Below are positions 1,741 to 30,917 of a DNA stretch of 64,000 bases, in pieces. How positions within the stretch are numbered: position 1 is the stretch's first letter; the number at the start of each line of letters is the position of its first letter. Made by a program: the position numbers and the translations under genes. The notes beneath the pieces were generated by a model that was not told where the DNA came from, made no database searches, and worked only from the letters and a program-made list of their open reading frames with translations. The DNA is from Chitinophagales bacterium (lineage in GTDB: Bacteria > Bacteroidota > Bacteroidia > Chitinophagales > Chitinophagaceae). The DNA lies in the NCBI GenBank assembly GCA_013298665.1, contig JAAFIK010000003.1:128641-192640 (forward strand), written 5' to 3'.

Positions 1741-2322
1741 CTATATTGTATGGCTCAACGCTGCATAGTATTGCTTACCATAGTTGGCAATTAATGCGGC
1801 TTTGTCCGTACCATTGATGATGCGTCTTGCATTCACCCAATCTTCGGTAGCGGGATTGAAATAATCGCTTAGTTTTTTACCGGTAAACCAGCCTTCGTTC
1901 ATACCGTTGAACATAATTTCGCTTGCATTAGCCGGCACGAGGGCCAGCTCAGGGTGCTGGATCAGGTCAATGCCCAGTTTTTTGCCGGCCTTCTGGTAGT
2001 TGTCATACCAGGTCAGTTGTACATAGCCTCTTCCATAGAACAGGTTTGTGGTGTCGGTGTAGCGTGTTTTCTTATCCATTTTCAGGTTTTGTCCGTAAGG
2101 CCGCCCTTTACCTTTTCCAAACTCTTCAATGGGTTGGATGGTAGCCGCTGTTTCATGATGCGCGGTACCGAGCATATAGGCCAGCCAACGGTCGTCTTTT
2201 TTGGCCCAGTTTTTATCCCATTCATCGAGTATAGCGGTGAGGCCGTTTACCTGGCTTGTCCGCAGACTACCGCCGAAGAGGGTACTGCGTACCTGATCGA
2301 AGAAGAACTTTCTGTTTAGCAT
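1741..2322 (-). CDS. GH19 chitinase/endolysin-like hydrolase
   Basis: AYMLGTAHHETA and FYGRGYVQLTWYDNY match the GH19 catalytic core and GRGxxQLT motif; no signal peptide evident. ORF can extend to 2358; ATG at 2322 (MLNRKFFFDQ) preferred. Confidence 0.75.
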   Translation of the reverse strand: MLNRKFFFDQVRSTLFGGSLRTSQVNGLTAILDEWDKNWAKKDDRWLAYMLGTAHHETAATIQPIEEFGKGKGRPYGQNLKMDKKTRYTDTTNLFYGRGYVQLTWYDNYQKAGKKLGIDLIQHPELALVPANASEIMFNGMNEGWFTGKKLSDYFNPATEDWVNARRIINGTDKAALIANYGKQYYAALSHTI

Positions 2323-2599
2323 TGGATTGTGTTTATAAGTGATGAATTGATTACGCATTTGGGATAAGAATGCTTTTGCCCGGGCAAACTGCTTTTGCGC
2401 TGTTGTGTTTGGGCTGCCGGTAATATTTCATACTTGCACCCATGAGATATATTATGATACGCTTTGCTGGTCATAAACAGTAAAAGTAGAACAGGTTTCC
2501 GGCCTTTGCAATACCCCAAAAGTAGTACAAGTTTATGTGCATATACTTTATGTCATTCTACCGGTAAAGCATTATATTTAACTGTCTAAAAAAACTCCC

Positions 2600-5500
2600 A
2601 TGCGTTTCTTTAACCGTAAATCTGCAGTTGCGACAGACAATCCCGTCAATCCATCACGCCGTGCGGTACTCAAATGGTTGAGTGTAGGTACAGCAGCATT
2701 GGCAACAGCTAAGGGAAAGGCGGCCAGTATTGACCGGACACTGCATGCGTTGGCCGATCAGGCCGACGAAAGTGTACAACTGCTGCTGCATCGTCCGCAG
2801 GACCTGCTTTTCCTTGAAATGCGTTTTTTCAATTTCGCCCGGCAGAATGGGGGAGATAGCCTGACCCGTATCGATGGTGGCCGCGCCCTGCTGGTCGTCT
2901 ATTTTCAGCCACAGAGTATGCAGGAGCAGGCCTGGCTTGAAGATGCAGGTTCTGGTCAACCGGTAACCGTTCCCGGCAAAATTATGCTGGCCGGCAAAAG
3001 CCGCCTGGTATTTGACATCCCGGCAAATATTACGTCTATACCGTTAACGGCAGATGCGCTGTTGAACTGGGAACGGTTTGATCTTGTGGTGAATGGCCGT
3101 GCCAGACCACATATTAAAAAGGTGTTACCCCTCTATAAAATACCTCCGGGGTCATTGTTGCAGGCGGATAAGAAACTGGCCATGGCAGCCGAACTCCTGC
3201 AGCGAAATACAGCACCGGCTACCCGGCAGCGCCTTGGCAACTATTTTCAGCGTAAAAATGGTGGTGCAGAAACGCTGACCATCGGCAATGTCAGTACCAC
3301 CGGCAGTAATGTGCAACGGGGTCAGTTGGTATTACCCAGGGGGGGACTGACGGCAGCGGTCATCCGCCTGGCGGGTGGTAACTACCCGGGGCCGGTGGAT
3401 GAAAAAGAAACCGCACTTGAAATCCCCTTCCGGTTGTTTGTATCTCCACCGGCAGGTGCGGGGTGGATACATACCACGCAACTGAATCCGTCGAAGGGAC
3501 TTTTCAAAAATACCAATAATGTATATGCGCTCTGGCATACCCGCCTTGGGGTCAAAACGGGCAATGGCATTATTCCCGATGATAGCGGCGATGCCACCAC
3601 GGCGTATAAAATTATCCGTGCACTCTGGGCTGTTGATGCGGATAAAGAATACAAAGCGCCGGTGAGTCCGGACCTGAGTTTTGTTACCGGTATCTACCGC
3701 GACCAGCGGCACAAAATCGTACATGAATCCTCCAATTTCGGAATACCCTTTTTTGTGCCTCAACCGGCCATGGTCAACAACATGCTGCTCACGACACTCG
3801 GTGCCAGCCTGGATGCAGAAATGAATGTGGAGTATACCGATGATCAAAAGAAGACCCTTCAACCCTGGCTCAATGTGCTGAAATGGAAACATATTGCCAC
3901 GATGGGGCGCGATCATTATGTGGAGATTGTGGAAGCGGGGTATATTTTCCCCTTTGGCCATGAGGCGGCATATGTTCAGGTTACAGCGCGTAAGATCGAT
4001 GCAGCAACGGGAACTGCTGCGAATAAGCAACGTGTATTTGTGGTCATTACGCAGACGGAGAAAAGTTATGTGCAGCGGGACGGAGAGGATAAGGCCTTTC
4101 TGCGTAATCCTTTTGCTGTTGTTCGTTTTGTAACAGAAGTAACCCCTTCGCTGGATCAGCCCATGGCTTTTTCGGGGAATAAATCAACACCGGATAAAGG
4201 GCAATTTATGCCGCAGACGGGTGGAAAACCCTTCCTGTTTGAGATCAAAGCGATCGACACGGAAGGCAATGAAACACATCTGTCTATGCCGATGGTCTTT
4301 ATTGCTGCAACGGCGGGCAGCCAGTTGCCTGGCGTGGTTGCGGAGTACAATAACCTGAAATCGCTGCGTATGGTGGAGGCAGGCGGGCAAAAAATTGCCA
4401 TCGCCCCTTCCCTGATTCCGGGGGATACCAGTTATGAAACCCGCAAACTGCAGTTTGGCGTTTTGCCTTTTGTCAAGGCGGTACAGGGGTTCCTGCCCAT
4501 GGTGGAGGAGCTGTCGATCATCGAGCCTTCTTACCGCCGTATGTCGGGCAACAGCAATGTGCTTGATGTAACACTGGTGGATGATAATAATGCAGGACAG
4601 GTGTTTGCGGCGATCAAAGTACCCGCAGCAGTAAAGTTTGATGCCATACCTGAAAAGTCGGGCGGTACCATTGTGCCCAACTTTTCCATGACGGGGTTGT
4701 CGAAGCTGCAGGGTGTTTTTGGTGGTGCCGTGGCCGATATGCAGGTGATGAAGTTCAACCCCAAAACATATTTCAACGGCAGTACGGCGCTGTTGTTTGG
4801 CATCATCAAACTGAGTGACCTGATTAAGGAAATAGGAACAGTTAGTGCTGATGATTATGCAGGCCAGGTAACGGCCAAAGTACAGCAGCTTGAGCAGTTA
4901 AAGATATCACTGGCTGCTGCTACCGATACGGCGACGGCGGCAGGGATCCGGAAGGAAATGGAAAAACAGGGGCAGGTTCTGCGCGACTTCAATGCTTCGT
5001 ACAAAAACTTCCGCATCCCGATGCTGAAGACCTTTGAAGACGATACCTCCGTGACCACACAGTATGTATGGAAGGGTGCGGCTGTACCTTCCCTTTCGGT
5101 GGGTATCGTAGCTTTTACCTGCCATGACCAGGCTAATGCGATATCGGTAACGACCAACTATATCCAGCGTAAGCAAAGCACCGAAAAACCGGTATTCAAT
5201 ACCACCTCTTCCATCAATGATTTTACCGTTACCATTGCAGGTATGCTTGAAGTGGGCTTTAATAAAGTGGGCTTTTCGGTGGACAATAATGCTAAAGTGG
5301 ATGTAAATGTGGTGATGAAACCCAAGCCGGTCAAATTCCTGGGGGTACTCTCGTTTATCAATGATTTTGAAAAACTCATTCCGGCCGACGGATTTTCTGA
5401 TCCTCCTTTTCTTGATGTCTCAACAGCCGGTGTCAAAACGGGCTTTAGCCTTTCGGTACCCGATCTCCAGTTGGGGGCTTTTACGTTGAGCAATATTGCT

Positions 5501-6064
5501 ATCGGTGCCTACGTCAACCTGCCTTTTAATGGTGAAGCGTTGAGCATCGGGTTTAACTTCTGCGAACGCAACCAGCCTTTTACCCTTACCATATCAGGGC
5601 TTGGTGGCGGCGGGTTCTTTGGCTTTGAGGCTGATTTTAAAGGATTACGCAGACTTGAAGCCGCGCTGGAGTTTGGCGCAGCCATAGCCATCAACCTCGG
5701 TGTAGCCAAAGGGAAAGTAAGCGTTATGGGTGGTATCTACTTTAAAATGGTTTTTAAGGAGGGTATTAATATTGTTGAGCTTACTGGTTATGTACGGATG
5801 AATGGCTGCCTGAGTGTACTGGGACTGATCAGGGCCAGCGTAGAATTCTACATGGGGCTGACGGCTGTTATGACCGGCTCAAAATGCAACAGCGTATACG
5901 GAGAAGTAACGGTCAAGGTGAAGGTTTCAGTTGCCTTCTTCTCTAAAACGGTGAGCATCCACACCAGCCGGGAATTTGCCGGGGCGGGTAATGATCCCAA
6001 CTTTGGTATGATGAATACCGAGCAGGACTGGTTAGACTATTGCAGTGCTTTTGCTGCCGCCTGA
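2600..6064 (+). CDS. Large uncharacterized protein (1154 aa) with putative Tat-like N-terminal signal
   Basis: Single long ORF; N-terminus NPSRRAVLKWLSVGTAALATAKGKA resembles a Tat signal; coiled-coil-like segment and Gly-rich GLGGGGFFGFEADF region; no family recognised. Confidence 0.85.
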   Translation: MRFFNRKSAVATDNPVNPSRRAVLKWLSVGTAALATAKGKAASIDRTLHALADQADESVQLLLHRPQDLLFLEMRFFNFARQNGGDSLTRIDGGRALLVVYFQPQSMQEQAWLEDAGSGQPVTVPGKIMLAGKSRLVFDIPANITSIPLTADALLNWERFDLVVNGRARPHIKKVLPLYKIPPGSLLQADKKLAMAAELLQRNTAPATRQRLGNYFQRKNGGAETLTIGNVSTTGSNVQRGQLVLPRGGLTAAVIRLAGGNYPGPVDEKETALEIPFRLFVSPPAGAGWIHTTQLNPSKGLFKNTNNVYALWHTRLGVKTGNGIIPDDSGDATTAYKIIRALWAVDADKEYKAPVSPDLSFVTGIYRDQRHKIVHESSNFGIPFFVPQPAMVNNMLLTTLGASLDAEMNVEYTDDQKKTLQPWLNVLKWKHIATMGRDHYVEIVEAGYIFPFGHEAAYVQVTARKIDAATGTAANKQRVFVVITQTEKSYVQRDGEDKAFLRNPFAVVRFVTEVTPSLDQPMAFSGNKSTPDKGQFMPQTGGKPFLFEIKAIDTEGNETHLSMPMVFIAATAGSQLPGVVAEYNNLKSLRMVEAGGQKIAIAPSLIPGDTSYETRKLQFGVLPFVKAVQGFLPMVEELSIIEPSYRRMSGNSNVLDVTLVDDNNAGQVFAAIKVPAAVKFDAIPEKSGGTIVPNFSMTGLSKLQGVFGGAVADMQVMKFNPKTYFNGSTALLFGIIKLSDLIKEIGTVSADDYAGQVTAKVQQLEQLKISLAAATDTATAAGIRKEMEKQGQVLRDFNASYKNFRIPMLKTFEDDTSVTTQYVWKGAAVPSLSVGIVAFTCHDQANAISVTTNYIQRKQSTEKPVFNTTSSINDFTVTIAGMLEVGFNKVGFSVDNNAKVDVNVVMKPKPVKFLGVLSFINDFEKLIPADGFSDPPFLDVSTAGVKTGFSLSVPDLQLGAFTLSNIAIGAYVNLPFNGEALSIGFNFCERNQPFTLTISGLGGGGFFGFEADFKGLRRLEAALEFGAAIAINLGVAKGKVSVMGGIYFKMVFKEGINIVELTGYVRMNGCLSVLGLIRASVEFYMGLTAVMTGSKCNSVYGEVTVKVKVSVAFFSKTVSIHTSREFAGAGNDPNFGMMNTEQDWLDYCSAFAAA

Positions 6065-6113
6065 TCCCGCCACTTTTTTATATGTTCTTTAACCAATACT
6101 GTACAGCAACAAC

Positions 6114-9100
6114 ATGAAACAAGAAATTCACATCACCGCACTGCCGGCTGGGATCATTCCCGGGCGTAATGGTGGCGAACCGCAACTGAAACTGTCTGCA
6201 TTTATCAGCATCAAGGTGAAGAATACGGGGGATACCACGCTTGCGGCGCTGCCCGACCTGATGGATTGGACAACAACCATCAGGAAAGCCAAATGGTTGC
6301 TGATGCGGAATGATGCCACGCCTGTAGAAGTGTCCCCGGTTACCGATGCCATTGATGAGGCGTTATGGAAAAAACTGTTTACCCCCACTATAAAGGTTAA
6401 GGCCTTTGCGCAGGAAGACCTGTCGCAAAAGCCCATGTTTACTTTTAACGTGCAGCATGTCCTGGCCTATCTCCACCAGAGCTTTGAAAGTGTGGGTAAA
6501 GCACATGTGGATAAACTTCCGCCTGTTGAAACATTTACCGGAAACCGGTTTTTTACGGATATCGCTGATATCGGTTTGCTGAAAGTTGATCCGGCACAGG
6601 TTGCCCGTCAGGCTGGTTCTGCGGAGGCATTGAAACTTACACAATTCTACGAAAAGCGCAACTACAGCAAGGAAAGGTTTACTACGCAGACGGCAAAGGA
6701 AACCATTCCGGCGTACAGCAGGATGATGAGCCCCGCGCTGACCTTTCAGCATTTCCGTACTTTTCATGATCCTGCTGCACTCCGGCAGCGGGCCAGCATT
6801 CCGCCGATGCCCAACCCGGATTTTGAGTTTCATGATATTCTATCGGTACTGACCCTCTACCCGCAACTGCTGCGAAAACTCGGGCTGGTGATTGATGTGC
6901 TGATGCCGCTTAGTAAAACCCCTTTTGTACTGGCTAACGAAACGGGTACGGTAAGGCTGGTACCTTCGGGTATCAATTTTACCACGGCTACTGATATTTC
7001 CGCGCCGCCCACTGCCTATGAGAAAACCCCCAATGGCTATTATACACAGGAGAAAGCCGGTAGTGATATTGATAAGGGACACCTGAAAGTGGATACGGAA
7101 GACTTTACCATTCTGCAGGTAGATACCGATGGTGCTGCGATGAAAATGGCTGCTATGATGGATACGCTTCAACTGAAACTGGCCCAGCAGAGTTTTGAGT
7201 TGGCAAAGTTTACCTTCCGGCCGCTACCGTTACTGGCTGTTACGAGTACCCGTAAACCGGTGGTAGCGGGTAATATGGTCATCAATGGTGCAGTGCAGAC
7301 ACCCTTGTACAGCGATCTTGACAATGTGAAGCGGGAAGAAGCCATGCCGGGTATGCGCAGCGCCGGTATCGCTATTGCTAAAAATAATATGGCGGGGTTT
7401 CTTCTGCTGAAATCAGCAACCATGCTCAATTTTGCGGGATTGATGTTTCAGAAAGTGCTGGCGGTTCCACCGGTATTCAAAAGCAACAATGCCAATTATT
7501 TCCTGCCTTCAGGTACGCTTTATACCGATGACCTTGTGCAGGGTTACCGTATGGATATTGCCTACAGCAACCAGCCATCGGTATGGTATTCCCTGCACCG
7601 TAAGCAGGACAGCTATACTTACAAGCCCGTTTCGGGTGCTGTACAGGTCATCAATGGTATTGAAGCGGATGAAGGATATGTACAACTGGCCATCAGTGAG
7701 GATGCTACCGGTAAAAAGGTAAACCATGTAAGCGAAGTGATTGCGCGCTGGGAAGGCTGGAGTTTATCTGCACCGCGTCCCGGCCATCTTCTCGACGATA
7801 ACAGTTCGGCTATAACAGGAGAGGGTATCACCGCTGAGCGCCAGAAGTTCCTGCTGCCGGCCTATATTGACTTCCGGCTGGAAGTGCAGACTGTGGCAGT
7901 AAAAGGCAGCTTACCACTTTTGCGTTATGGCCGGGAATATAATATAAAGGTAAGGACGGTTGACCTGGCGGGGAACAGCACGGACCTGCAAACAACGCCG
8001 GAAAATGCAAAGAAGGCTGTGATTCATAATTATAAGTACCTGCGCTACGAACCGGTGGCCCCTCCTTTATTATTGCCTGCAACACCCAATAAAGATGGTG
8101 AGTCTGCCGAGAGAATGGTGATCAGGAGTAATGCCGGTGTAAGTCCGGATCAGTATGAGGCTGCCGTTGCAGGTAAGAATACAGGTAATGCAACCTATGC
8201 GGGTCAGGCGATTCGCCATGTTAAGCCCCCGCGCACGTCTGTACAGATGGCCGAATGGCACGGGATGCTTGATGCAGCTTTTGGTAAGGATCGTGGCGCC
8301 GCTGCGGCACAGATATATGCCCGCCTCACCGCCAAAGACCCCAAAACAGACCCGGCATCTGCTTCATCTGCGCAAACCATTATGCCGGCAGAAGAGCTGC
8401 CCATTGAATACCTGGCAGATCCGATGGCAGCAGGGGTAAGCCTCTTCCTCAGCGAAAACGACCAGAATGGCAAAAAGATACTGGGTGATGGTATCAAACA
8501 GTTCAGTTTCTTTTTTGACCAGGTCAATACACCTGCGGAGGCCAACCAGCCGGTCAGCATGGAAAACTGGCTGAAAGCGAAAGCTTTCCGTATACAGTTG
8601 ATGGAGGGCAATGGCAATTTTGACTGGAACAGTGCAAAACGGCTGTTGACGATCGGACTGCCCAAGGGTACGATTCTGCGGCTGAATTATTCCTGTTTCT
8701 GGCGAAGTGACGACTTATTAAATTCTGCAGGGATGATGCAAACGCTTAAGCTGACCAGTCTTGCCGGTTTTATTGGGGAGAAGATTGCAACAGGCAGACA
8801 CTGGATGTTTTCCCCATGGCGTGAACTGACACTTGTGCATGCGGTGCAGCAACCACTGACGGATCCCGTTTTGCAGGAAATAGCTCCGGAGCGCGATTAT
8901 GGAGAAACCACAGCGCTGCTGCATACCCTCTTTACCACACATAGCGCCAGCACAGAAAAAATAGATATCGAATGTAACTGGGTAGAAACCGTTGACGATC
9001 TGCTCAATCCCGCACCCCTTGAAAATATGCCATTCAGTCAGCATGTAACGACCGTTCCCGTTCACTACAGCTTTCCTGTGTTACGGATGGGTGAGCGGTT

Positions 9101-10340
9101 GCAGAATACCGGTGTTGTGGCAGGGTTGTACAATGCCAAACACCCATTGCTTCACCAGCTCAATGATACGCGGCACCGCAATGTGCAATATAAGATAGTG
9201 GCAACAACACGTTACCGCGAGAACTTTGTTGGGCTTTTAACCCAGGTAAAACCTGCACCACCCATTACCCGGGAGTCCATATACGCTAAAACGGTCAACC
9301 TGTTATCCACTGCCCGGCCACTGGCGCCTGAGATCGCCTATGTATTGCCTTCATTTGAGTGGGAGCGTGCCTTCCAGGGTAAAAAATTAGTCACGGGCCG
9401 GCTGAGTAATATCCGTGTTTACCTGAAGCGGCCATGGTACAGCAGTGGGGATGGGGAATTACTTGGTGTGGTGATTCCGGCATCAGCAAGTGGCAGGGGA
9501 GGGGTGGTACAGTTGATGGCTAATAATAATCCTTCGAATCCCAATCTCCTTACGCAGTGGGGTACAGATCCGACCAAAATTTCCTCCGGACTGATGGCTA
9601 ACGGCGGTGTACAAACAAATCCGGAGCAGGAAAACTTCGTCAACCCCTTCAAGGTGGAGAACAACCTGAGTATACGGGAGGAAAGTAACCGCCGGGTAAA
9701 AGTAATCGGCTACCCGGTACAGTTTGATATTGAAAAGCAACTTTATTTTGCTGACATTCTGTTAAACATCAACGAAGCTTATTTCCCCTTTGTGAAACTG
9801 GCGTTGGCCCGTTACCAGCCCGATTCGCTGCATGAGGAAGGAACCGATTGCTGCCTGTCTCCGATTGTGAACGCTGATTTTATACAGATACCTGCACCCA
9901 GAAGTACTTCGCTTGAGCACGGGCTTACCAAGAATGTATTTACAGTAGCCATTTTGGGTACGGCACCATCGATTGTTACACCAGTTTTTGCCACTGAAGT
10001 GGAAATTATTGTAGAGGATGCCAGTCAGGTGATCAAATCCGGTGATGCCTTTATTAAGGTGCAGGGTGAGGGGCGTGCTGCAAGACCATTGTATGCATTC
10101 CGGCAGCGTATCGAAAGAAAGCACTTCATCAAAGGCAATACATTCTATTTTGCGCACCCGGTAACGATCGGGCTTGAATTTGCACTCAAACCCTTCCGGA
10201 TACGGGTGATGGAGTATGAGATGCTGCCAGGCGATCCCTTACGCAGTGATGGTGTGGCTATCAATATCAGGGGTGTTGCTGCTGACAGTACGCTGCAGGA
10301 AAGGCTTGTCTTTTCAGACGTTTATGAGGTTGGTGGTTAA
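6114..10340 (+). CDS. Large uncharacterized protein (1408 aa), probable operon partner of the preceding ORF
   Basis: Single long ORF starting 50 bp after the previous stop; motifs RPWYSSGDGELLGVV and KVRTVDLAGNSTD (Ig-like); no signal peptide evident. Confidence 0.85.
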   Translation: MKQEIHITALPAGIIPGRNGGEPQLKLSAFISIKVKNTGDTTLAALPDLMDWTTTIRKAKWLLMRNDATPVEVSPVTDAIDEALWKKLFTPTIKVKAFAQEDLSQKPMFTFNVQHVLAYLHQSFESVGKAHVDKLPPVETFTGNRFFTDIADIGLLKVDPAQVARQAGSAEALKLTQFYEKRNYSKERFTTQTAKETIPAYSRMMSPALTFQHFRTFHDPAALRQRASIPPMPNPDFEFHDILSVLTLYPQLLRKLGLVIDVLMPLSKTPFVLANETGTVRLVPSGINFTTATDISAPPTAYEKTPNGYYTQEKAGSDIDKGHLKVDTEDFTILQVDTDGAAMKMAAMMDTLQLKLAQQSFELAKFTFRPLPLLAVTSTRKPVVAGNMVINGAVQTPLYSDLDNVKREEAMPGMRSAGIAIAKNNMAGFLLLKSATMLNFAGLMFQKVLAVPPVFKSNNANYFLPSGTLYTDDLVQGYRMDIAYSNQPSVWYSLHRKQDSYTYKPVSGAVQVINGIEADEGYVQLAISEDATGKKVNHVSEVIARWEGWSLSAPRPGHLLDDNSSAITGEGITAERQKFLLPAYIDFRLEVQTVAVKGSLPLLRYGREYNIKVRTVDLAGNSTDLQTTPENAKKAVIHNYKYLRYEPVAPPLLLPATPNKDGESAERMVIRSNAGVSPDQYEAAVAGKNTGNATYAGQAIRHVKPPRTSVQMAEWHGMLDAAFGKDRGAAAAQIYARLTAKDPKTDPASASSAQTIMPAEELPIEYLADPMAAGVSLFLSENDQNGKKILGDGIKQFSFFFDQVNTPAEANQPVSMENWLKAKAFRIQLMEGNGNFDWNSAKRLLTIGLPKGTILRLNYSCFWRSDDLLNSAGMMQTLKLTSLAGFIGEKIATGRHWMFSPWRELTLVHAVQQPLTDPVLQEIAPERDYGETTALLHTLFTTHSASTEKIDIECNWVETVDDLLNPAPLENMPFSQHVTTVPVHYSFPVLRMGERLQNTGVVAGLYNAKHPLLHQLNDTRHRNVQYKIVATTRYRENFVGLLTQVKPAPPITRESIYAKTVNLLSTARPLAPEIAYVLPSFEWERAFQGKKLVTGRLSNIRVYLKRPWYSSGDGELLGVVIPASASGRGGVVQLMANNNPSNPNLLTQWGTDPTKISSGLMANGGVQTNPEQENFVNPFKVENNLSIREESNRRVKVIGYPVQFDIEKQLYFADILLNINEAYFPFVKLALARYQPDSLHEEGTDCCLSPIVNADFIQIPAPRSTSLEHGLTKNVFTVAILGTAPSIVTPVFATEVEIIVEDASQVIKSGDAFIKVQGEGRAARPLYAFRQRIERKHFIKGNTFYFAHPVTIGLEFALKPFRIRVMEYEMLPGDPLRSDGVAINIRGVAADSTLQERLVFSDVYEVGG

Positions 10341-15015: not shown

Positions 15016-17169
15016 ATGGCAGATTTACGTTATCAACGGAACTTCGGTATTGCTGCGCACATTGATGCGGGCAAGACCACCACTACAGAGCGTATCCTGT
15101 ATTACACCGGTGTAAACCATAAGATCGGTGAAGTACACGATGGCGCTGCAACGATGGACTGGATGGCACAGGAACAGGAAAGGGGTATCACCATTACTTC
15201 TGCTGCCACTACCTGTTTCTGGAACTTCCCAACGGTGCAGGGGGCTAAAACTCCTGAAACCAAACAATACAAATTCAACATCATTGATACACCCGGTCAC
15301 GTGGACTTTACTGTAGAGGTAGAGCGCTCACTCCGTGTATTGGATGGGTTACTGGCATTGTTCTGCGCAGTGTCGGGTGTAGAACCCCAGTCTGAAACCG
15401 TTTGGCGGCAGGCCAACCGTTACAAGGTACCGCGTATCGGTTTTGTAAACAAAATGGATCGTGCCGGTGCCGACTTCCTGAATGTGGTAAAGCAGGTGAA
15501 GGAAATGCTGGGTGCCAAAGCTGTACCCCTGCAGTTGCCGATCGGTGCTGAAGACGGATTTAAGGGTGTGGTAGACCTGATCAAAATGGAAGGGATGGTT
15601 TGGGACGATGCTACACAAGGGATGACGTATAAAGTGGTACCCATTCCTGAAGATATGATCGATGAGGTAAACGAATGGCGCCAGCACCTGATTGAAGCCG
15701 TAGCGGATTATGATGATAAGCTCCTGGAAAAATTCTTTGATGATCCCAATACGATCACCGAAGCTGAAATCCACGAAGCCATCCGCAAAGCAACCATTGA
15801 TATCTCTATCATTCCGATGATGTGCGGTTCTTCATTCAAGAATAAGGGTGTACAGACTGCATTGGATGCAATCGTACGCTACCTGCCCGGTCCGATGGAT
15901 ATTGAAGCCATCAAAGGCACGAATCCTGATACAGGCGAAGAAATTCTCCGTCATTGTGATCCAAAGGAGCCATTCAGTGCCCTGGCTTTCAAAATCATGA
16001 CCGATCCATTTGTGGGACGTTTGGCGTTCTTCCGGGCGTACAGCGGCCGTCTGGATTCCGGTAGTTATGTACTCAATACCCGTACGGGCAAAAATGAGCG
16101 CATCAGCCGTATCATGCAGATGCATGCCAACAAGCAAAACCCGGTTGATTATATTGAAGCAGGCGATATCGGCGCGGCAGTTGGGTTTAAGGACATCAAG
16201 ACCGGCGATACCCTGTGTAATGAAAACAGCCCCATCGTGCTTGAAGCGATGACCTTCCCTGAGCCGGTGATCAGCGTGGCTATTGAGCCTAAAACACAGG
16301 CCGATGTTGATAAAATGGGTATGGCGATTGCCAAACTGGTGGAAGAAGATCCTACACTGCGGGTAAAGACCGATGAAGAAACCGGTCAGACTATCCTTAG
16401 TGGTATGGGTGAATTACATCTGGAGATCATCATCGACAGGATGAAGCGTGAGTTTAAAGTAGAGATCAACCAGGGTGCACCTCAGGTGGCCTATAAAGAA
16501 GCTTTCCAGGCAAATGTTGAGCACCGTGAAACGCTGAAAAAGCAAACCGGTGGTCGTGGTAAATTCGCTGATATCGTGTTCGAAATCGGGCCGGTGGATG
16601 AAGAATGGCAAAAAGAAAACCCAGATAAGAATTACCAGTTTGTCAATGACCTGTTTGGTGGCAGCATTCCCCGCGAATTTGTGGCACCGATGCAGAAAGG
16701 TTTTGAGTCGGCCATGTCAACGGGTGTTCTGGCAGCCTATCCGATGGAGAGTATGAAAATACGTGTATATGATGGTAGCTTCCATGCTGTGGATAGTGAC
16801 GGTATGAGTTTTGAACTTTGTGCGAAAGCGGGCTTCCGTAACGCCGGTAAAAAAGCGAAACCGGCATTACTCGAACCCATCATGAAGGTAGAGGTAATTA
16901 CCCCCGATCAATACATGGGTGATGTTACCGGTGACCTGAACCGCCGTCGTGGTATGCTGGAAGGTATGGACAGCAAAGCTGGTTTGCAGGTGATCAAAGC
17001 AAAAGTACCTTTGAGCGAAATGTTTGGTTATGTAACCCAATTGCGTTCGCTGTCATCCGGCCGTGCCTCATCAACCATGGAGTTCAGCCATTACAGCCCT
17101 GCGCCCAATAACATCGCAGAGGAAGTGATTGCCAAACAGAAGGGAAAGATTAAAGTGGAAGAAGAATAA
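15016..17169 (+). CDS. fusA: Elongation factor G
   Basis: [50 protein letters not shown] and full-length EF-G architecture. Confidence 0.98.
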
Positions 17170-23729: not shown

Positions 23730-23870
23730 GAGTACTTGGACTGAGTATTCAGTACTCAGTACTCAGTACCAAGTCGTTAGTACAGATGCAGGATATAAGA
23801 TGCAAGATATGAGATATGAGAAGCAAGACGCTCCGGTACCAGATACTTAGTACTCAGTACTGAATAATCA
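23730..23870. repeat. Intergenic inverted-repeat element with internal direct repeats
   Basis: Left arm GAGTATTCAGTACTCAGTACTCAGTACC, right arm (reverse complement) GATTATTCAGTACTGAGTACTAAGTATC; centre has GATGCAGGATATAAGATGCAAGATATGAGATATGAG. Confidence 0.7.
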
Positions 23871-24923
23871 AAAAAACATCCACGGAAATTTATTAGGGCA
23901 AACATCTGATGGGCACTCACCTTCATAATTGGCCGAGCGGCTGTCGTAAAAACCTCCGCCCTCAAAACTAAGTCCGGTGTGGCGGCTGGTAGGGTTGTAC
24001 AGGTACATATCAACACTGCTGCCCAGCCGGTAACGTTTATCCACCCCGTTATTATAAGCGGCCTTTTTATCAAGGAACCGGAAGTTGATACCCGCACTGA
24101 TGCTGTGGCTGCTGTTGCCGCCAAAATCTGCATTGTTGCGGTACCAGATGCTGAGTTCGCTAAAGTATTCTTTAAAATCAATGAGGGCACCCACGGCCAG
24201 GCTGCTGCTCTTACCCTGGAGGTTGAGCACAACGCTGGGTTTGACCACGATGGGCTGCACATTTTCGCGTTCATTATTGTATGATAGATTGGCCGTCAGC
24301 CGCATCGGCAGTCTGCTGCTGCGACTGCTGCCACCGAGGCCATCATGCGGCCTCGTAATATGGTGCAGGGCGCTACCCGCACAGAAATTGCCCCAGGTAG
24401 CAAGCAGACCGGCACCAGCATCAAGATAGTTTTGATTGGGCTGCCTGAAAATTTCAGCGTCTGACGGAATGCCGAGTATGCCCTGTGTTTCGCTAAGCTG
24501 ATCGCCGAACAAAAGTTTACTGGTATTCAACCCCTTCCATACCCAGCCGATCTGCATACCCATACTTATAAAAAGGTCATGACATTCTTCAGTACGGCTA
24601 CCGATGTTTTTAGCCAATGAAAGATAGACCCCCGTGGTACGCAGGTAACCTTCGCTGAAATGGTTGACCATTAAGCCCATTGAAGCCTGTGGATAATACA
24701 GGTGTTTGTCTACCGACACATTGGTGTACATAAGGGGTTGCGGTAACCTTGTCCATTGCATCCGGTTCACGCCGCTTATCCGGAAATCGTTGCGCATGCA
24801 ACCCGTTAGTGCGGGATTCATGTAAAGCGGTGCATAATAAAACTGGCTGAACAACGGATCCTGCGCCTGTACCGAAACGGTAAGCAGCAGGCCGATGATC
24901 AAATGAAAGCTGTATTGTTTCAT
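23868..24923 (-). CDS. PorP/SprF family type IX secretion system membrane protein
   Basis: QDPLFSQFYYAPLYMNPALTGCMRNDFRISGVNRMQW is the characteristic PorP/SprF N-terminus. Confidence 0.95.
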   Translation of the reverse strand: MKQYSFHLIIGLLLTVSVQAQDPLFSQFYYAPLYMNPALTGCMRNDFRISGVNRMQWTRLPQPLMYTNVSVDKHLYYPQASMGLMVNHFSEGYLRTTGVYLSLAKNIGSRTEECHDLFISMGMQIGWVWKGLNTSKLLFGDQLSETQGILGIPSDAEIFRQPNQNYLDAGAGLLATWGNFCAGSALHHITRPHDGLGGSSRSSRLPMRLTANLSYNNERENVQPIVVKPSVVLNLQGKSSSLAVGALIDFKEYFSELSIWYRNNADFGGNSSHSISAGINFRFLDKKAAYNNGVDKRYRLGSSVDMYLYNPTSRHTGLSFEGGGFYDSRSANYEGECPSDVCPNKFPWMFF

Positions 24924-24941: not shown

Positions 24942-27900
24942 TTACCTGAATAGGGTTACTGTTCCGGAAGACCTTGGCTTAAGGTCTCCATTGTATTGCA
25001 TACCATCCCATTGTGTGCCGTTTCGGAAATCGGCCACCCGGATCACCCATAAATATGCGTCCTGCGGCATATCCTGTCCCTTGTATTTGCCATCCCAGCC
25101 CTCGCTCGGACGGCCATCGGCATCCAGCGCCGTGGTTTCAAACAGGAGTTTACCCAATCCGTCAAATACCTGCAACTGGTAGCGCAGCAAGCCCTTGCCT
25201 TTGGGCAGGAAACTGCGCAGTTCGTATTTCTGGCTGTTGGGGTAAAAGGCATTGGGTACAAACAGGGTGCCATCTACTTTCTCTATCGTTACCCGCACCG
25301 AGTCCCTGCCCCGGCAGCCCGTTTCAAAATCTGTCAGCAGCAGCCGCACCAGGAAACTGCCTGTATTACCATAGGGATGCGTAACCTGCCGGCCCGACCG
25401 GGATACCCCATCACCCATTGTCCACAACCAGGTTTTATTGATGTTTGCCGCCGTGCTATCGGAAAAGGTAAACTGCCGCTCAGGCTGACGAATGACAAAG
25501 CCTGGGGATACGGTGATCTTTGGTCTGGGTGAAGGGAGTACCGTAAAACTGGCGCTGGCCGAAGTATCGCCACAGTTGGTTACCGCTGAAGCAATGGCTT
25601 CAATGGTAAAGACCACGGGTTGACTGCTGCCCGGGGGTACGGTAAAACGGTGGAAATAGGGGTTGCCTGTTCCCACGATCACCCCATTTATCCGCCAACT
25701 ATAAGCCAGCGTACCCGGACCGGTATAATCGCTCCGCGCAATCAGCCTTATGGTGGTATCGGTATTGCAGGTTTGTATCGTATCCGGTTGCAGGATTGTT
25801 TTGGGTTTTGGAAACAGGGTAAAGACCCTGGTGACACTGTCGCGACAACCCGCGCTGTTGGTCACCACCAGTTTAACCGAATAAGAGCCGGGCTGCTGGT
25901 ATTGGTAAGCCGCCGTGCTGCCCGAAGCGGTAAACTGGCCACCTGGCAAGGCAGGGTCAAAAAAGGTCCATTGTATGCTGCCCGCTGCTGTGGTACCCGG
26001 CGCCGTTACCGAGAGGGTATAGCCCGGTGCACAGAGCGGGGCGGTATTGGTGAGGATGATCTGTGCGGGTATCCTCGCCACCACTTCCACCACAATGGCA
26101 GCCGTATCCATACAGAGCAGTCCGGTATTACCGAGTTTTTTGGCGACAAGTTGTACCGTAAAGAAACCCGCCTGGGTAAAGGTATGCGTGGCATTGGTGG
26201 CCGTGGTATTGGTGCCGCCATCTCCCCAGATCCATTCATAGGCATTGGCATTGAGTGAGGTATTGGTGGTGCGGATGCTGTCGCCGGTACAGATCTTTAC
26301 AGCGTTGAGCGTAAACTGGGCTTTTGGTGTGGCATACACCACTACCTGGCGCGTCACCATTGTGTCGGTACAATCGTTAACGAACCGGATTTTCGGAAAA
26401 TAAGTACCCGCATTGACATAGGTATGGTAAAAATTGCCGGGCAGGTTGAGTGTGGTATCGAGCGGACTGCCATCACCATAATTCCAGATGATGAATGCGG
26501 CACCGATGGATGCGTTGAGAAAATTGACGACACCAGGTGCACAGGTCTCCTGTGAAGTACCGCTTACCGTTATGGCTGCTTCGATGGTGCGCGGCGATAC
26601 AATGATATCGGTAACTGCAGTATCCCGCCCGCAAACATTCTCTGCAATCAACCGCAGTTTAAACGTATCGATAGTATTGGTTATATAGACCGGCTTGAGG
26701 ATGGTGTCGCGATTGGCCGTTACAAAACTGCTGCCATATCCATAGTTCCAGTAAAACAGGCTGCTGTTGAGCGATGAGCCATTGGTAATGGAGGGGGTGA
26801 ATGTGGAACAACCCCGTGTGGCTGTGGGCGTAAAGCCAGCACGGGGTTTCGACAGCACACGGATGCTGTCGCGGTATTCCACAATGCTGCAGCCATTGTC
26901 GGCACGCAGTATAATATGGTAAGTGGTATCCCTCGGTAATGGGTTGGGGTTAAACAGGATCGTGCCCGGCTGGGTGCTGATGCTCGTCTGCCCGTTGCCA
27001 AACAACCAGGTAAAGCTGACCGTACCATCCAGCACAGAAGATGTATTGGTAAAGCTCACAGATAGCGGACCGCAGCCAACTGAAACGCTTTTGGTAAAGG
27101 CGGGTACCACATTGCGCGTGGTGATCAACCGGATCGTTTTACTGTCTGGCCGGCAGCCGAAAGCACTCTGTACGTCTAACCGTATGTCCACCGTATCCCC
27201 GGCAAGCGCCATTGTATAACCCGGAAAAGCGCCGGTAGTATTGGGTGTACCCAATGGCACACCATCAGCATACCAACTGTAGAGCCCATTACCGGAGAAA
27301 GGGGTAACCGTAATGGTGGTATCTAATACAGCACCTGCGCAGAGCAGGGTGTCCCTTGCCGTAAAGATGGCTCTGGCATCCGGCCTTACGGTAATGCACA
27401 GCACATTGCTCGGTTGGGGCTGGTTGCTGCCACAGGTGGCTGTGGTTACATTGCGGCGGTAGCAGGCAGACTGTGTCAGTACACCCGGGTCATAATCAGC
27501 GCCAATGGCTCCGGAAATTATGGTCCAGGGTGCCTGTCCATTCGAGCTTTGTTCCCAGCTATAGGTATAGCCACCACCACCACCCTGTGGCGGCGAACCA
27601 CTGATGATACCCGCTGTTGTACCCGTGCAGATTTCACGGTTGGCCGGCAGCGTATTGTTACTGATGCTGCCATTCACCGTTACCTGTACCGCCGTACTGG
27701 TATCGCTGCAGGCACCCGAGCGTATGACGCGCTTATACCAGGTGGATGTTGTTGGGCTGACGGTTATCTGCTGGTTGGGCAGGAGTGGTGCCGGGGTGAG
27801 TGGGGTATAGGTAATATTATCCGTGCTGCTGAGCCATACATAAGTAAAGCTGCCACTGCCACCGGTGGGCAGACTGCCCGTAATGGCGGCGGTATTGTTG

Positions 27901-30900
27901 ATACAGATGGCCTGGGTGGGTGGATTGATGCTGTTGCCGCTGAGTGGCGGGAGGTTGTTAATGGTGACGGTATCCCTTGTTGGGGTACATACACCAGCCG
28001 TACCCGTTACTGTCCATTCAAAGCTATAGGTCTGCCCGGCTACCAGCCCGGTAATGGTGCTGTTGGCCTGCGCCGGATTGGTAATGGTTACAGTAGCAGC
28101 GGGTATTTCGCGCCAGGTACCGCTGCCTACAGCCGGTGATGTACCCTGCAGGGTAAACTCTATGGCATTGCAGAGCGTGGTATCATTACCCGCGCGGGCT
28201 GCAGCCACCCCCGGTAATACGGTTATGCGCCGGATCAGGGTATCGCTGCTGCAGCCATTGGTACTGCCCCATATCCGGTATTCTACTACTGCACTGCCGG
28301 TAGTCGTATTCACCAGTAAGGGGTTGATGGCTGTTACCGCCTGGTTGCTGCCATTGCTGAAACCCGAAGCTGTGCCGCTCACCTGTGCAGCCGTCCAGGA
28401 AAACAGGGTAGGGGTAATGTTGCTGGTGAGTTGGATTGCCGCTGTACTGCCGCTGCAGATGCTGTCTTTAACCACAGTGGCTGTAATGGCGGCCCTGGGC
28501 TTTACCGTAACGGTCAATCTGAAGGTATCACCCGCACAGGTTCCTGACGATGGGATGATGGTGTAAGTTATGATGGCGTCGGTAATACCCGTGTTGACCA
28601 ATGCGTCGCTGATGGTACCACTACCCGGGGATGTATTGCCGGTAGCTGTTCCTGTTGTTACCTGGGATGTCCATTGAAAACTGCTGCCGGGGGTACTGGA
28701 GACGGGTGTATAAGTGATGCGGGTATTGCTGCAAATGCTCAGGCTGCTGTCGCGTCCGGTATTGTTGCCCGACAGCAGTACGAGGATACTGTCTGTGGCA
28801 GCGGCGCAGGCGCTGGGTGTGGTGGGTGTTGCACTGAAGCGGAGTTTGAAACTGCCAGCCGCTTTATCCGCAGCAGAGAGCGTATACACCGTTGCAGCGG
28901 CATTGCCGGGTGTAAAACTGCCCGTGCCGCTGCTGGTCCACAACAAGGTTCCGGCCGGTCCGGTAACCGTGGCCGTGAGGTTGAGGTTATCCGGACTGGC
29001 GCAGAAGCTGAGCGTATCCGGCCCGGCATCTGCCGTTACTTTTTCGCTGAAGCGGATGCGGTGAACAACCGTTTTGGTACCGCAGTTATTGACGTAGACC
29101 AGTGTTATGGTATAGAGGCCATAATCCTGGAAACGGATGATGGGGTAGCGATCGTTTGGTCCTGTGCCACCGGTAAAGTTATGGCCACCCCCTGTTACCG
29201 TCCAGGTATACGATTGGTTGCCCTGGTTGGCATTGTAGTTGGGTTTGTGCAGGGGGTTGGTACCGAAATCAATCGTGACATCTTTGGTACAATAGCCAGT
29301 GTCGGGAGGGAAGGTTACGGTTGCCGAGCCGGTGATGTTGACGATTTTCTTAACATCCTTTACAAAAGTACCACAGCTATTGGTGACTCCAAGGTGTACA
29401 ATATAAATGCCCGGCTGGTGAAAAATGAAATATGGTTCATAGGCACTATCATTGGGTACAATGGTATAGATGCCGCTGTTCGGGTTTACATCCAAGCCGG
29501 TGCTGTAGTAACAAACCCGCCATTTCCATTTGTTCTCGCGGCAATTGTTGGCAGAAGATTGGTTGTCGGTAAAGACCGTATCTCCCGTACAAAGCGCGAT
29601 AGAATCTGCGCCATTGAGAAAATATTCAACAACGGGCCTGGGTTCTACGCAAACGATATGAGTGATCTCGCTGACGCAGGGATTGTTTTCCACGACAAGC
29701 CTGATCGTATAATTGCCAACAGTATTAAAAATGGTGTCCAGGTTTCTCGGTGCATTAATGATCAGGCTTCCGTTTACATACCATTTGTACCTGACCCCGG
29801 CATCGTTACAGGTAACAGCATTTCCCGGAGCGCTTAATCCGGTAGTACTGGTATTGATAAACGTTACCCTTGTATTCAGGCATATATACTGCGGATTAGT
29901 AAAAGCGGCAACAGGCTTTTGAAATACTTTGGGGTATCCTGTAAATGGCTCAAAATTCGAACAATATTTGTTGGAGGCTTTGATGGTAACCCGGAAAGCA
30001 TTGTAAATGGGTGGGGTACCCGGTATTGGTGGCTGACCGCATGAACTTGTGGTATAAAAGTGTTTGATCTCTCCATTGTTTACACTGAGCTCACATTGGG
30101 TGAGTGAATCAATCGGGCTCCCGTCGCCCCATTCGACGGTATAAATACAACCGGGATAATTCAGTTTGTAAGTACTTTCTACTGTGTAGGTTTTGCTTTG
30201 AGGTAAACAAAGCTGGCTACCGGTACCCTGACTTCCGAGGTTAAGGTTGCTTGCTGATGCTAAAACCAGGTAGGCTTTTACACTTTTTGTGCCACCTGAC
30301 ATAAGTGTTGCAAAAAAAGTATAGTAGTTGCCAAGCAGTACATTGAATGTAACCTGGTTACCATTTGTAGTAGTGGATACGGTATTGCCCAGGCTATCTA
30401 CTAAACGGTGACTGAAATTATTTGCTGCGCCATTGCTTTGTAACACAATTTCAAAAGGGTTTTCGGTCATGTCACATTTCCCAAATACCTTCTCCGGTAC
30501 CGAAGCCAGTATATCCGGCCCAACCAGATCATTAGCCGTACCCGCACCTGCCACAATCGTAATTGGTGCCGAGGTAACCGATACGGCCGGGCTGGTGGAC
30601 GTAATCCTGATACGGTATTGTGTACCCTGGGGGGTAGCTGCGGGTATGCGGCCATTCACAAAAGGGGTGAAGAAGCCGGTAAACTGACCGATGACTGTAC
30701 CGGGAAAGTTGCCACTGGCGTCAGAAAGAGAAAGGTCAAACCGGTTGTTGCGGTTGAAGCAACCGTTGAGCCTGATGGGTATGGCAATATCGCTGCCCGG
30801 CCCATAATCTCCGGCTGCAAAATTGGCATTGTCGATGGTAATCGTTTGCGCCCGGGTGGTGATCCCCGCTGTAAGTAAGCCCAGTAAAAAAGCAATGCGG

Positions 30901-30917
30901 TAAAAATGTATGCTCAT
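24942..30917 (-). CDS. Giant PKD-domain protein with T9SS type-B (gliding motility-associated) C-terminal sorting domain
   Basis: Multiple PKD-like repeats; C-terminus VDGTLFVPNAFYPNS...LQVFDGLGKLLFETTALDADGRPSEGWDGKYKGQDMPQDAYLWVIRVADFRNG...GTVTLFR is CHU_C-like. Confidence 0.95.
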   Translation of the reverse strand: MSIHFYRIAFLLGLLTAGITTRAQTITIDNANFAAGDYGPGSDIAIPIRLNGCFNRNNRFDLSLSDASGNFPGTVIGQFTGFFTPFVNGRIPAATPQGTQYRIRITSTSPAVSVTSAPITIVAGAGTANDLVGPDILASVPEKVFGKCDMTENPFEIVLQSNGAANNFSHRLVDSLGNTVSTTTNGNQVTFNVLLGNYYTFFATLMSGGTKSVKAYLVLASASNLNLGSQGTGSQLCLPQSKTYTVESTYKLNYPGCIYTVEWGDGSPIDSLTQCELSVNNGEIKHFYTTSSCGQPPIPGTPPIYNAFRVTIKASNKYCSNFEPFTGYPKVFQKPVAAFTNPQYICLNTRVTFINTSTTGLSAPGNAVTCNDAGVRYKWYVNGSLIINAPRNLDTIFNTVGNYTIRLVVENNPCVSEITHIVCVEPRPVVEYFLNGADSIALCTGDTVFTDNQSSANNCRENKWKWRVCYYSTGLDVNPNSGIYTIVPNDSAYEPYFIFHQPGIYIVHLGVTNSCGTFVKDVKKIVNITGSATVTFPPDTGYCTKDVTIDFGTNPLHKPNYNANQGNQSYTWTVTGGGHNFTGGTGPNDRYPIIRFQDYGLYTITLVYVNNCGTKTVVHRIRFSEKVTADAGPDTLSFCASPDNLNLTATVTGPAGTLLWTSSGTGSFTPGNAAATVYTLSAADKAAGSFKLRFSATPTTPSACAAATDSILVLLSGNNTGRDSSLSICSNTRITYTPVSSTPGSSFQWTSQVTTGTATGNTSPGSGTISDALVNTGITDAIITYTIIPSSGTCAGDTFRLTVTVKPRAAITATVVKDSICSGSTAAIQLTSNITPTLFSWTAAQVSGTASGFSNGSNQAVTAINPLLVNTTTGSAVVEYRIWGSTNGCSSDTLIRRITVLPGVAAARAGNDTTLCNAIEFTLQGTSPAVGSGTWREIPAATVTITNPAQANSTITGLVAGQTYSFEWTVTGTAGVCTPTRDTVTINNLPPLSGNSINPPTQAICINNTAAITGSLPTGGSGSFTYVWLSSTDNITYTPLTPAPLLPNQQITVSPTTSTWYKRVIRSGACSDTSTAVQVTVNGSISNNTLPANREICTGTTAGIISGSPPQGGGGGYTYSWEQSSNGQAPWTIISGAIGADYDPGVLTQSACYRRNVTTATCGSNQPQPSNVLCITVRPDARAIFTARDTLLCAGAVLDTTITVTPFSGNGLYSWYADGVPLGTPNTTGAFPGYTMALAGDTVDIRLDVQSAFGCRPDSKTIRLITTRNVVPAFTKSVSVGCGPLSVSFTNTSSVLDGTVSFTWLFGNGQTSISTQPGTILFNPNPLPRDTTYHIILRADNGCSIVEYRDSIRVLSKPRAGFTPTATRGCSTFTPSITNGSSLNSSLFYWNYGYGSSFVTANRDTILKPVYITNTIDTFKLRLIAENVCGRDTAVTDIIVSPRTIEAAITVSGTSQETCAPGVVNFLNASIGAAFIIWNYGDGSPLDTTLNLPGNFYHTYVNAGTYFPKIRFVNDCTDTMVTRQVVVYATPKAQFTLNAVKICTGDSIRTTNTSLNANAYEWIWGDGGTNTTATNATHTFTQAGFFTVQLVAKKLGNTGLLCMDTAAIVVEVVARIPAQIILTNTAPLCAPGYTLSVTAPGTTAAGSIQWTFFDPALPGGQFTASGSTAAYQYQQPGSYSVKLVVTNSAGCRDSVTRVFTLFPKPKTILQPDTIQTCNTDTTIRLIARSDYTGPGTLAYSWRINGVIVGTGNPYFHRFTVPPGSSQPVVFTIEAIASAVTNCGDTSASASFTVLPSPRPKITVSPGFVIRQPERQFTFSDSTAANINKTWLWTMGDGVSRSGRQVTHPYGNTGSFLVRLLLTDFETGCRGRDSVRVTIEKVDGTLFVPNAFYPNSQKYELRSFLPKGKGLLRYQLQVFDGLGKLLFETTALDADGRPSEGWDGKYKGQDMPQDAYLWVIRVADFRNGTQWDGMQYNGDLKPRSSGTVTLFR

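Follow-up and report, generated by a model that had tools for sequence, protein, structure and literature searches.

Two giant neighbouring genes, here termed A and B, form a real and undescribed two-gene module that crosses bacterial phyla, and we state this with high confidence. Both lie in the window, the 64,000-nucleotide stretch analysed here (G000:C32:128641-192640), which belongs to a Chitinophagales genome of 4.83 Mb in 108 contigs, a Bacteroidota genome that its nearest relatives place in Chitinophagaceae. An earlier note, made from the sequence alone, had described three open reading frames at one end of this stretch, a GH19-like hydrolase gene and two giant ORFs of unrecognised family, and had proposed them as a single candidate system. 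Rechecking the ORFs bore out the positions, sizes and strands of all three, with 49 bp between A and B. The features of the locus are as follows.

1741-2358, minus strand: GH19 endolysin-like gene, 205 aa, with a Pfam and a PHROG match
2600-6064, plus strand: gene A, 1154 aa, 125 kDa, twin-arginine N-terminus, no known family
2651-2737, plus strand: twin-arginine (Tat-like) region of A, PSRRAVLKWLSVGTAALATAKGKAASI, from a motif scan
4730-5005, plus strand: helical segment of A (residues 711-802), predicted with low confidence
5021-5983, plus strand: C-terminal domain of A (residues 808-1128), conserved and the best family marker
6065-6113, plus strand: gap between A and B, 49 bp
6114-10340, plus strand: gene B, 1408 aa, 156 kDa, beta-rich and multi-domain, no known family
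7734-7976, plus strand: motif block with the highest conservation in B, RWEGWSLSAPRPG ... LPLLRYGREYNIKVRTVDLAGNS, resembling FN3/Ig on inspection by eye and in a weak fold match

The GH19 gene is divergent from A, with a gap of 241 bp, and the short spacing of A and B on one strand suggests that these two are likely co-transcribed. Scans around the genes for the Bacteroidota -33/-7 promoter pattern, sigma-70 promoters and terminators returned nothing above chance. A and B have a GC content of 0.48-0.52, a little higher than the 0.43-0.49 of the downstream flank. Collinear, nearly full-length homologues of both genes were found across genera, and dN/dS between close homologues is about 0.05-0.14, indicating purifying selection; together, these results mark the giant ORFs as genuine coding frames rather than chance ones.

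Of 396 Bacteroidota genomes, 19 were found to have A with a profile of its C-terminal domain; a B profile, in a search of equal size and draw, identified B in 20, and 18 genomes have both. The unpaired cases were a distant A in G522 and marginal B matches in G371 and G452. At every locus where both genes are whole, the order is A then B on one strand, as observed in the Bacteroidota loci L020-L026 and L048-L064 and in G717. The same order recurs in Cupriavidus metallidurans CH34, Rhizobium, Diaphorobacter, and Streptomyces (profile E-values 1e-131 to 1e-292) as well as in Sinorhizobium meliloti and Ruegeria, where a plasmid or megaplasmid carries the pair, and on further Rhizobium, Streptomyces, and Agrobacterium plasmids. 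Exceptions to an intact pair are contig ends (L011/L027 and L063), a split A (L075 and L122), and a split B (L120), and B remnants with no detected A were observed at L114, L116, and L117. A and B share one evolutionary history: a Mantel comparison of the distance matrices for 21 proteins each of A and B gave an r of 0.965, matched by none of 2000 permutations, a value that is partly due to shared ancestry, which alone gives a high figure. The view of the two giant ORFs as an undescribed unit therefore held up on co-occurrence, fixed order, matrix correlation, and purifying selection.

As single sequences, A and B had no match in Pfam, NCBIfam, PHROGs, PADLOC, or PDB sequences, in agreement with the earlier failure to recognise a family in either protein. 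As family profiles of 20-21 members, they had no Pfam or PDB match except low-scoring helix matches. The PADLOC models matched none of A, B, the GH19 protein, or the products of two further genes, C and D, that are described below; with no PADLOC match, a known anti-phage defence system was ruled out for the pair. The full text of open-licence papers held nothing on the A-B pair. Judged by these searches, A and B would be categorically new as protein families, and their biochemical role could prove ordinary. Their conserved residues are mainly glycine, proline, aromatic, and scattered charged residues, with no recognisable catalytic motif among them, so that scaffolds would seem to fit A and B better than enzymes. 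The two genes have stayed side by side in carriers that range from Chitinophagaceae to plasmids of Streptomyces, yet the pair lies outside the curated libraries and solved structures searched.

The distribution of A-B, which spans at least three phyla (Bacteroidota, Pseudomonadota, and Actinomycetota), is patchy. In the window's genus, A occurs in 2 of 93 genomes, namely the window genome and G717, the latter with a distant version of the pair. The B tree groups the window with Chitinophagales MAGs (support 100/99) and places G717 far away on a long branch. The patchy distribution, the distant position of G717, and the plasmid carriage suggest that A-B may have moved horizontally. The largest A homologues observed include one of 3052 aa in Sinorhizobium (L112:1900-11058) and one of about 3300 aa in Ruegeria (L113). 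On an Agrobacterium vitis plasmid (L120:7416-12957), a dpd gene cluster has A and a split B immediately upstream.

Some observations concern the surroundings of the pair. The window has fusA (15016-17169) 4.7 kb downstream of B, and rpsG is on a different contig. In G020 (L022, identical to L009, 1527-13336), the giant pair sits as an insertion between rpsG and fusA. In G133 (L010 and L019), the genes are at two contig ends, A behind rpsG on the one and B ahead of fusA on the other, which is consistent with the same rpsG-fusA placement as in G020. The window also encodes a 1991-aa secreted protein (24942-30917) with PKD-like repeats and a C-terminus of the gliding type, recognised by eye, adjoined by a PorP/SprF-like gene (23868-24923, also by eye).

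The GH19 gene stands outside the unit formed by the pair. Its description as a GH19-like hydrolase was correct, given a PF00182 score over the Pfam cut-off (33.4 vs 25.5 bits) and a match to PHROG endolysin family 181 (3e-32), and tblastn matched it to 363 phage records. No GH19 relative was found beside any other A-B copy; G717 has A-B and no such GH19, and G714, which holds the best GH19 relative in the genus, has no A. The unlinked loci and these two genomes rule out GH19 as a member of the A-B unit. The neighbourhood check suggested in the earlier note thus upheld linkage of A with B and not of the trio: the three genes showed no conserved linkage in related genomes, a result set beforehand as refuting a single system. 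From these sequence comparisons, the GH19 gene is probably a stray phage-type endolysin unrelated to A-B.

Our best explanation, held tentatively and as somewhat short of probable, takes A to be a giant protein exported through Tat and B to be its obligate partner. A would cross the membrane as a folded protein by the Tat pathway, and at its C-terminus it would have a beta-sheet domain of long strands that is probably amphipathic. B would be a string of Ig/FN3-like beta domains with no signal of its own, a dedicated partner that is either carried along with A or meets it later. Together, they would build a cell-envelope or extracellular assembly, which in some Bacteroidota would be completed by secreted C, which may have an RCC1 propeller at its end, and by the outer-membrane-barrel-like D.

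A motif scan placed the twin-arginine motif of A, PSRRAVLKWLSVGTAALA, at residues 18-35, with SRRAVLK at 19-25, a feature that the earlier note had not mentioned. Such a motif, followed by a mildly hydrophobic stretch, lies close to the N-terminus in 18 of the 21 Bacteroidota A proteins that were aligned and also occurs in A from a Streptomyces, a Sinorhizobium, and an IMG/VR contig. It is from the motif and the hydrophobic stretch that we infer a signal function and regard A as a putative Tat substrate; the Pfam TAT_signal model scored 11.7 bits on A, below its cut-off of 22.7. Independent support for a Tat link comes from two loci in which a tatA-family gene (PF02416 over cut-off) directly follows B, one on Sinorhizobium meliloti LMB1 plasmid pC (L112:16424-16591) and one plasmid-borne in Ensifer adhaerens (L116:15546-15710). 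TatC was found in the window genome, in 23 of the 24 genomes checked, and also in 11 of 14 controls, so its presence or absence does not discriminate.

Eight loci from four Bacteroidota families have the secreted genes C and D flanking A-B (L057:686-5421; L050:532-4545; L054, L056, L058-L060, and L064). C has a conserved N-terminal domain, with an RCC1 propeller in two of its scanned members, and D is about 620-690 aa long and barrel-like by pattern. The 11 strongest D matches in the 396 genomes all fall in genomes with A/B. The window genome has one weak D paralogue, located away from the pair.

Several points weigh against this explanation. Tat export of an A protein of 125-330 kDa would be extreme, and that of A plus B more so; B has no export signal, and neither C nor D lies beside the window's pair. 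If A is a Tat substrate, its size would be exceptional, and the dedicated TatA genes would offer a testable example of a translocase component devoted to a single giant cargo. The most extensive form of the idea, a secreted assembly spanning phyla, with a Tat-exported giant of 125 to >300 kDa, a dedicated TatA on some plasmids, an obligate giant partner with no signal, and a barrel and propeller in some Bacteroidota, we consider rather doubtful as a whole.

Three Bacteroidota A proteins, all from family f18, lack the twin-arginine motif, as do those of Cupriavidus, Rhizobium (L075), Diaphorobacter, and one Streptomyces (S. xanthophaeus); the start codons of these sequences may have been misannotated. 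Taken as they stand, these sequences mean that Tat export is not universal. They would also suit a large cytoplasmic or only sometimes exported complex, in which the twin-arginine N-terminus is a lineage-specific add-on, as would the heterogeneous neighbouring genes and a B that never carries a signal. We nonetheless judge such a complex unlikely, as the motif is retained in most Bacteroidota A proteins despite identities of 20-45%, recurs in Streptomyces, Sinorhizobium, and the IMG/VR contig, and is accompanied by the tatA-family gene after B at two loci.

Hydrolase genes beside the pair were considered as signs of a delivery or toxin-like module, with the flanking hydrolases as exchangeable cargo or wall-opening accessories. 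In addition to the GH19 gene of the window, there is a gene 46 bp upstream of A in G717 for a CHAP protein with a GH75 chitosanase domain below the cut-off. An M23 peptidase gene directly follows the B remnant in Bradyrhizobium, an astacin gene abuts the end of B in Rhizobium phaseoli, an M35 peptidase gene comes after B in Ruegeria, and a patatin gene neighbours the pair in Rhizobium. Wall-type hydrolases beside the pair in G147 (L027) and in the IMG/VR contig L122 were recognised by eye, without Pfam support. Upstream of the pair, G717 (L124 and L125) also has a gene with RHS repeats that weakly matches Peptidase_M91; this gene would be in keeping with such a module. However, the neighbours are mostly ordinary housekeeping or unknown genes, no hydrolase trend was seen in Pfam's most frequent families among 55 sampled neighbours, the GH19 gene points away from the pair, and the pattern is post hoc and based on small numbers, so that we find a delivery role quite improbable. 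Wall hydrolases linked to A-B are thus a lead from a few loci, noticed afterwards. What survives of the earlier pairing of a wall hydrolase with giant proteins is that CHAP (G717) and M23 (Bradyrhizobium) genes do sit beside the pair, in numbers too few for a link; the connection to GH19 does not survive.

The AlphaFold models are poor, with a mean pLDDT of 42 for A and 50 for B residues 209-1408, and statements on fold are therefore weak and the Foldseek lists only hints. Foldseek on these models, proposed in the earlier note as a check, gave only weak matches with TM-scores too low to count. The C-terminus of A was modelled, at low confidence, as a continuous meander of long antiparallel strands, and B, also at low confidence, as strings of beta-sandwich domains; no signal-like segment was found at the B N-termini. 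The helices of A weakly match Pfam Apolipoprotein in 5 of 21 relatives, and apolipoprotein homology was ruled out, since these are only low-scoring coiled or amphipathic-helix matches. The long antiparallel strands of A, its weak resemblance in Foldseek to porins, OmpT and OmpU among them, and the barrel-like D might point to an outer-membrane beta-barrel of the porin or autotransporter kind and to A-B as an outer-membrane surface machine. The TM-scores of these matches are only 0.05-0.12, however, and the C-terminal domain is also found in A from Streptomyces, a monoderm genus with no outer membrane, which argues against a porin for the A family as a whole and leaves the barrel reading very improbable.

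A tailocin or eCIS, as raised in the earlier note, or a particle of the phage-tail type, with GH19 as its lysin, deserves hardly any credence and is largely refuted, because a phage-like GH19 endolysin, giant protein size, and weak Ig-type matches of B that include T5 and lambda tail-tip proteins are set against the lack of any PHROG match for A or B, of any match to either in 50,697 phage records, and of any visible sheath, tube, baseplate, or spike gene among the pair's neighbours, as well as an unlinked GH19. A phage or viral origin of A-B was ruled out on the same phage records and on IMG/VR, where the pair was found on one fragmentary contig (L122).

Four kinds of known system come closest to the genes of the locus. 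The neighbouring GH19 protein resembles phage-type GH19 endolysins (PHROG 181; Glyco_hydro_19) in identity (up to 53%), similar length, and the lack of a visible signal peptide, but it stands alone in the chromosome, with no other phage genes seen nearby. A has weak Foldseek matches to lipid-transfer or TULIP-type sheets (microsomal triglyceride transfer protein, apolipoprotein B, and P47), but the TM-scores of 0.04-0.11 offer no evidence of a shared fold, and there is no sequence homology. The B model matches tandem FN3 and macroglobulin-like chains in Foldseek, as would be expected of tandem FN3/Ig scaffold proteins, but the likeness is local, with query TM-scores of up to 0.14, and none of 20 B proteins has a Pfam FN3 match. 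Tat substrates with hitchhiker partners, such as E. coli PaoABC (PMC4273604), are cofactor enzymes and far smaller, whereas A and B have no recognised cofactor or enzyme domain; the likeness to A-B is that one subunit bears the twin-arginine motif, as A does, and the other, like B, has none.
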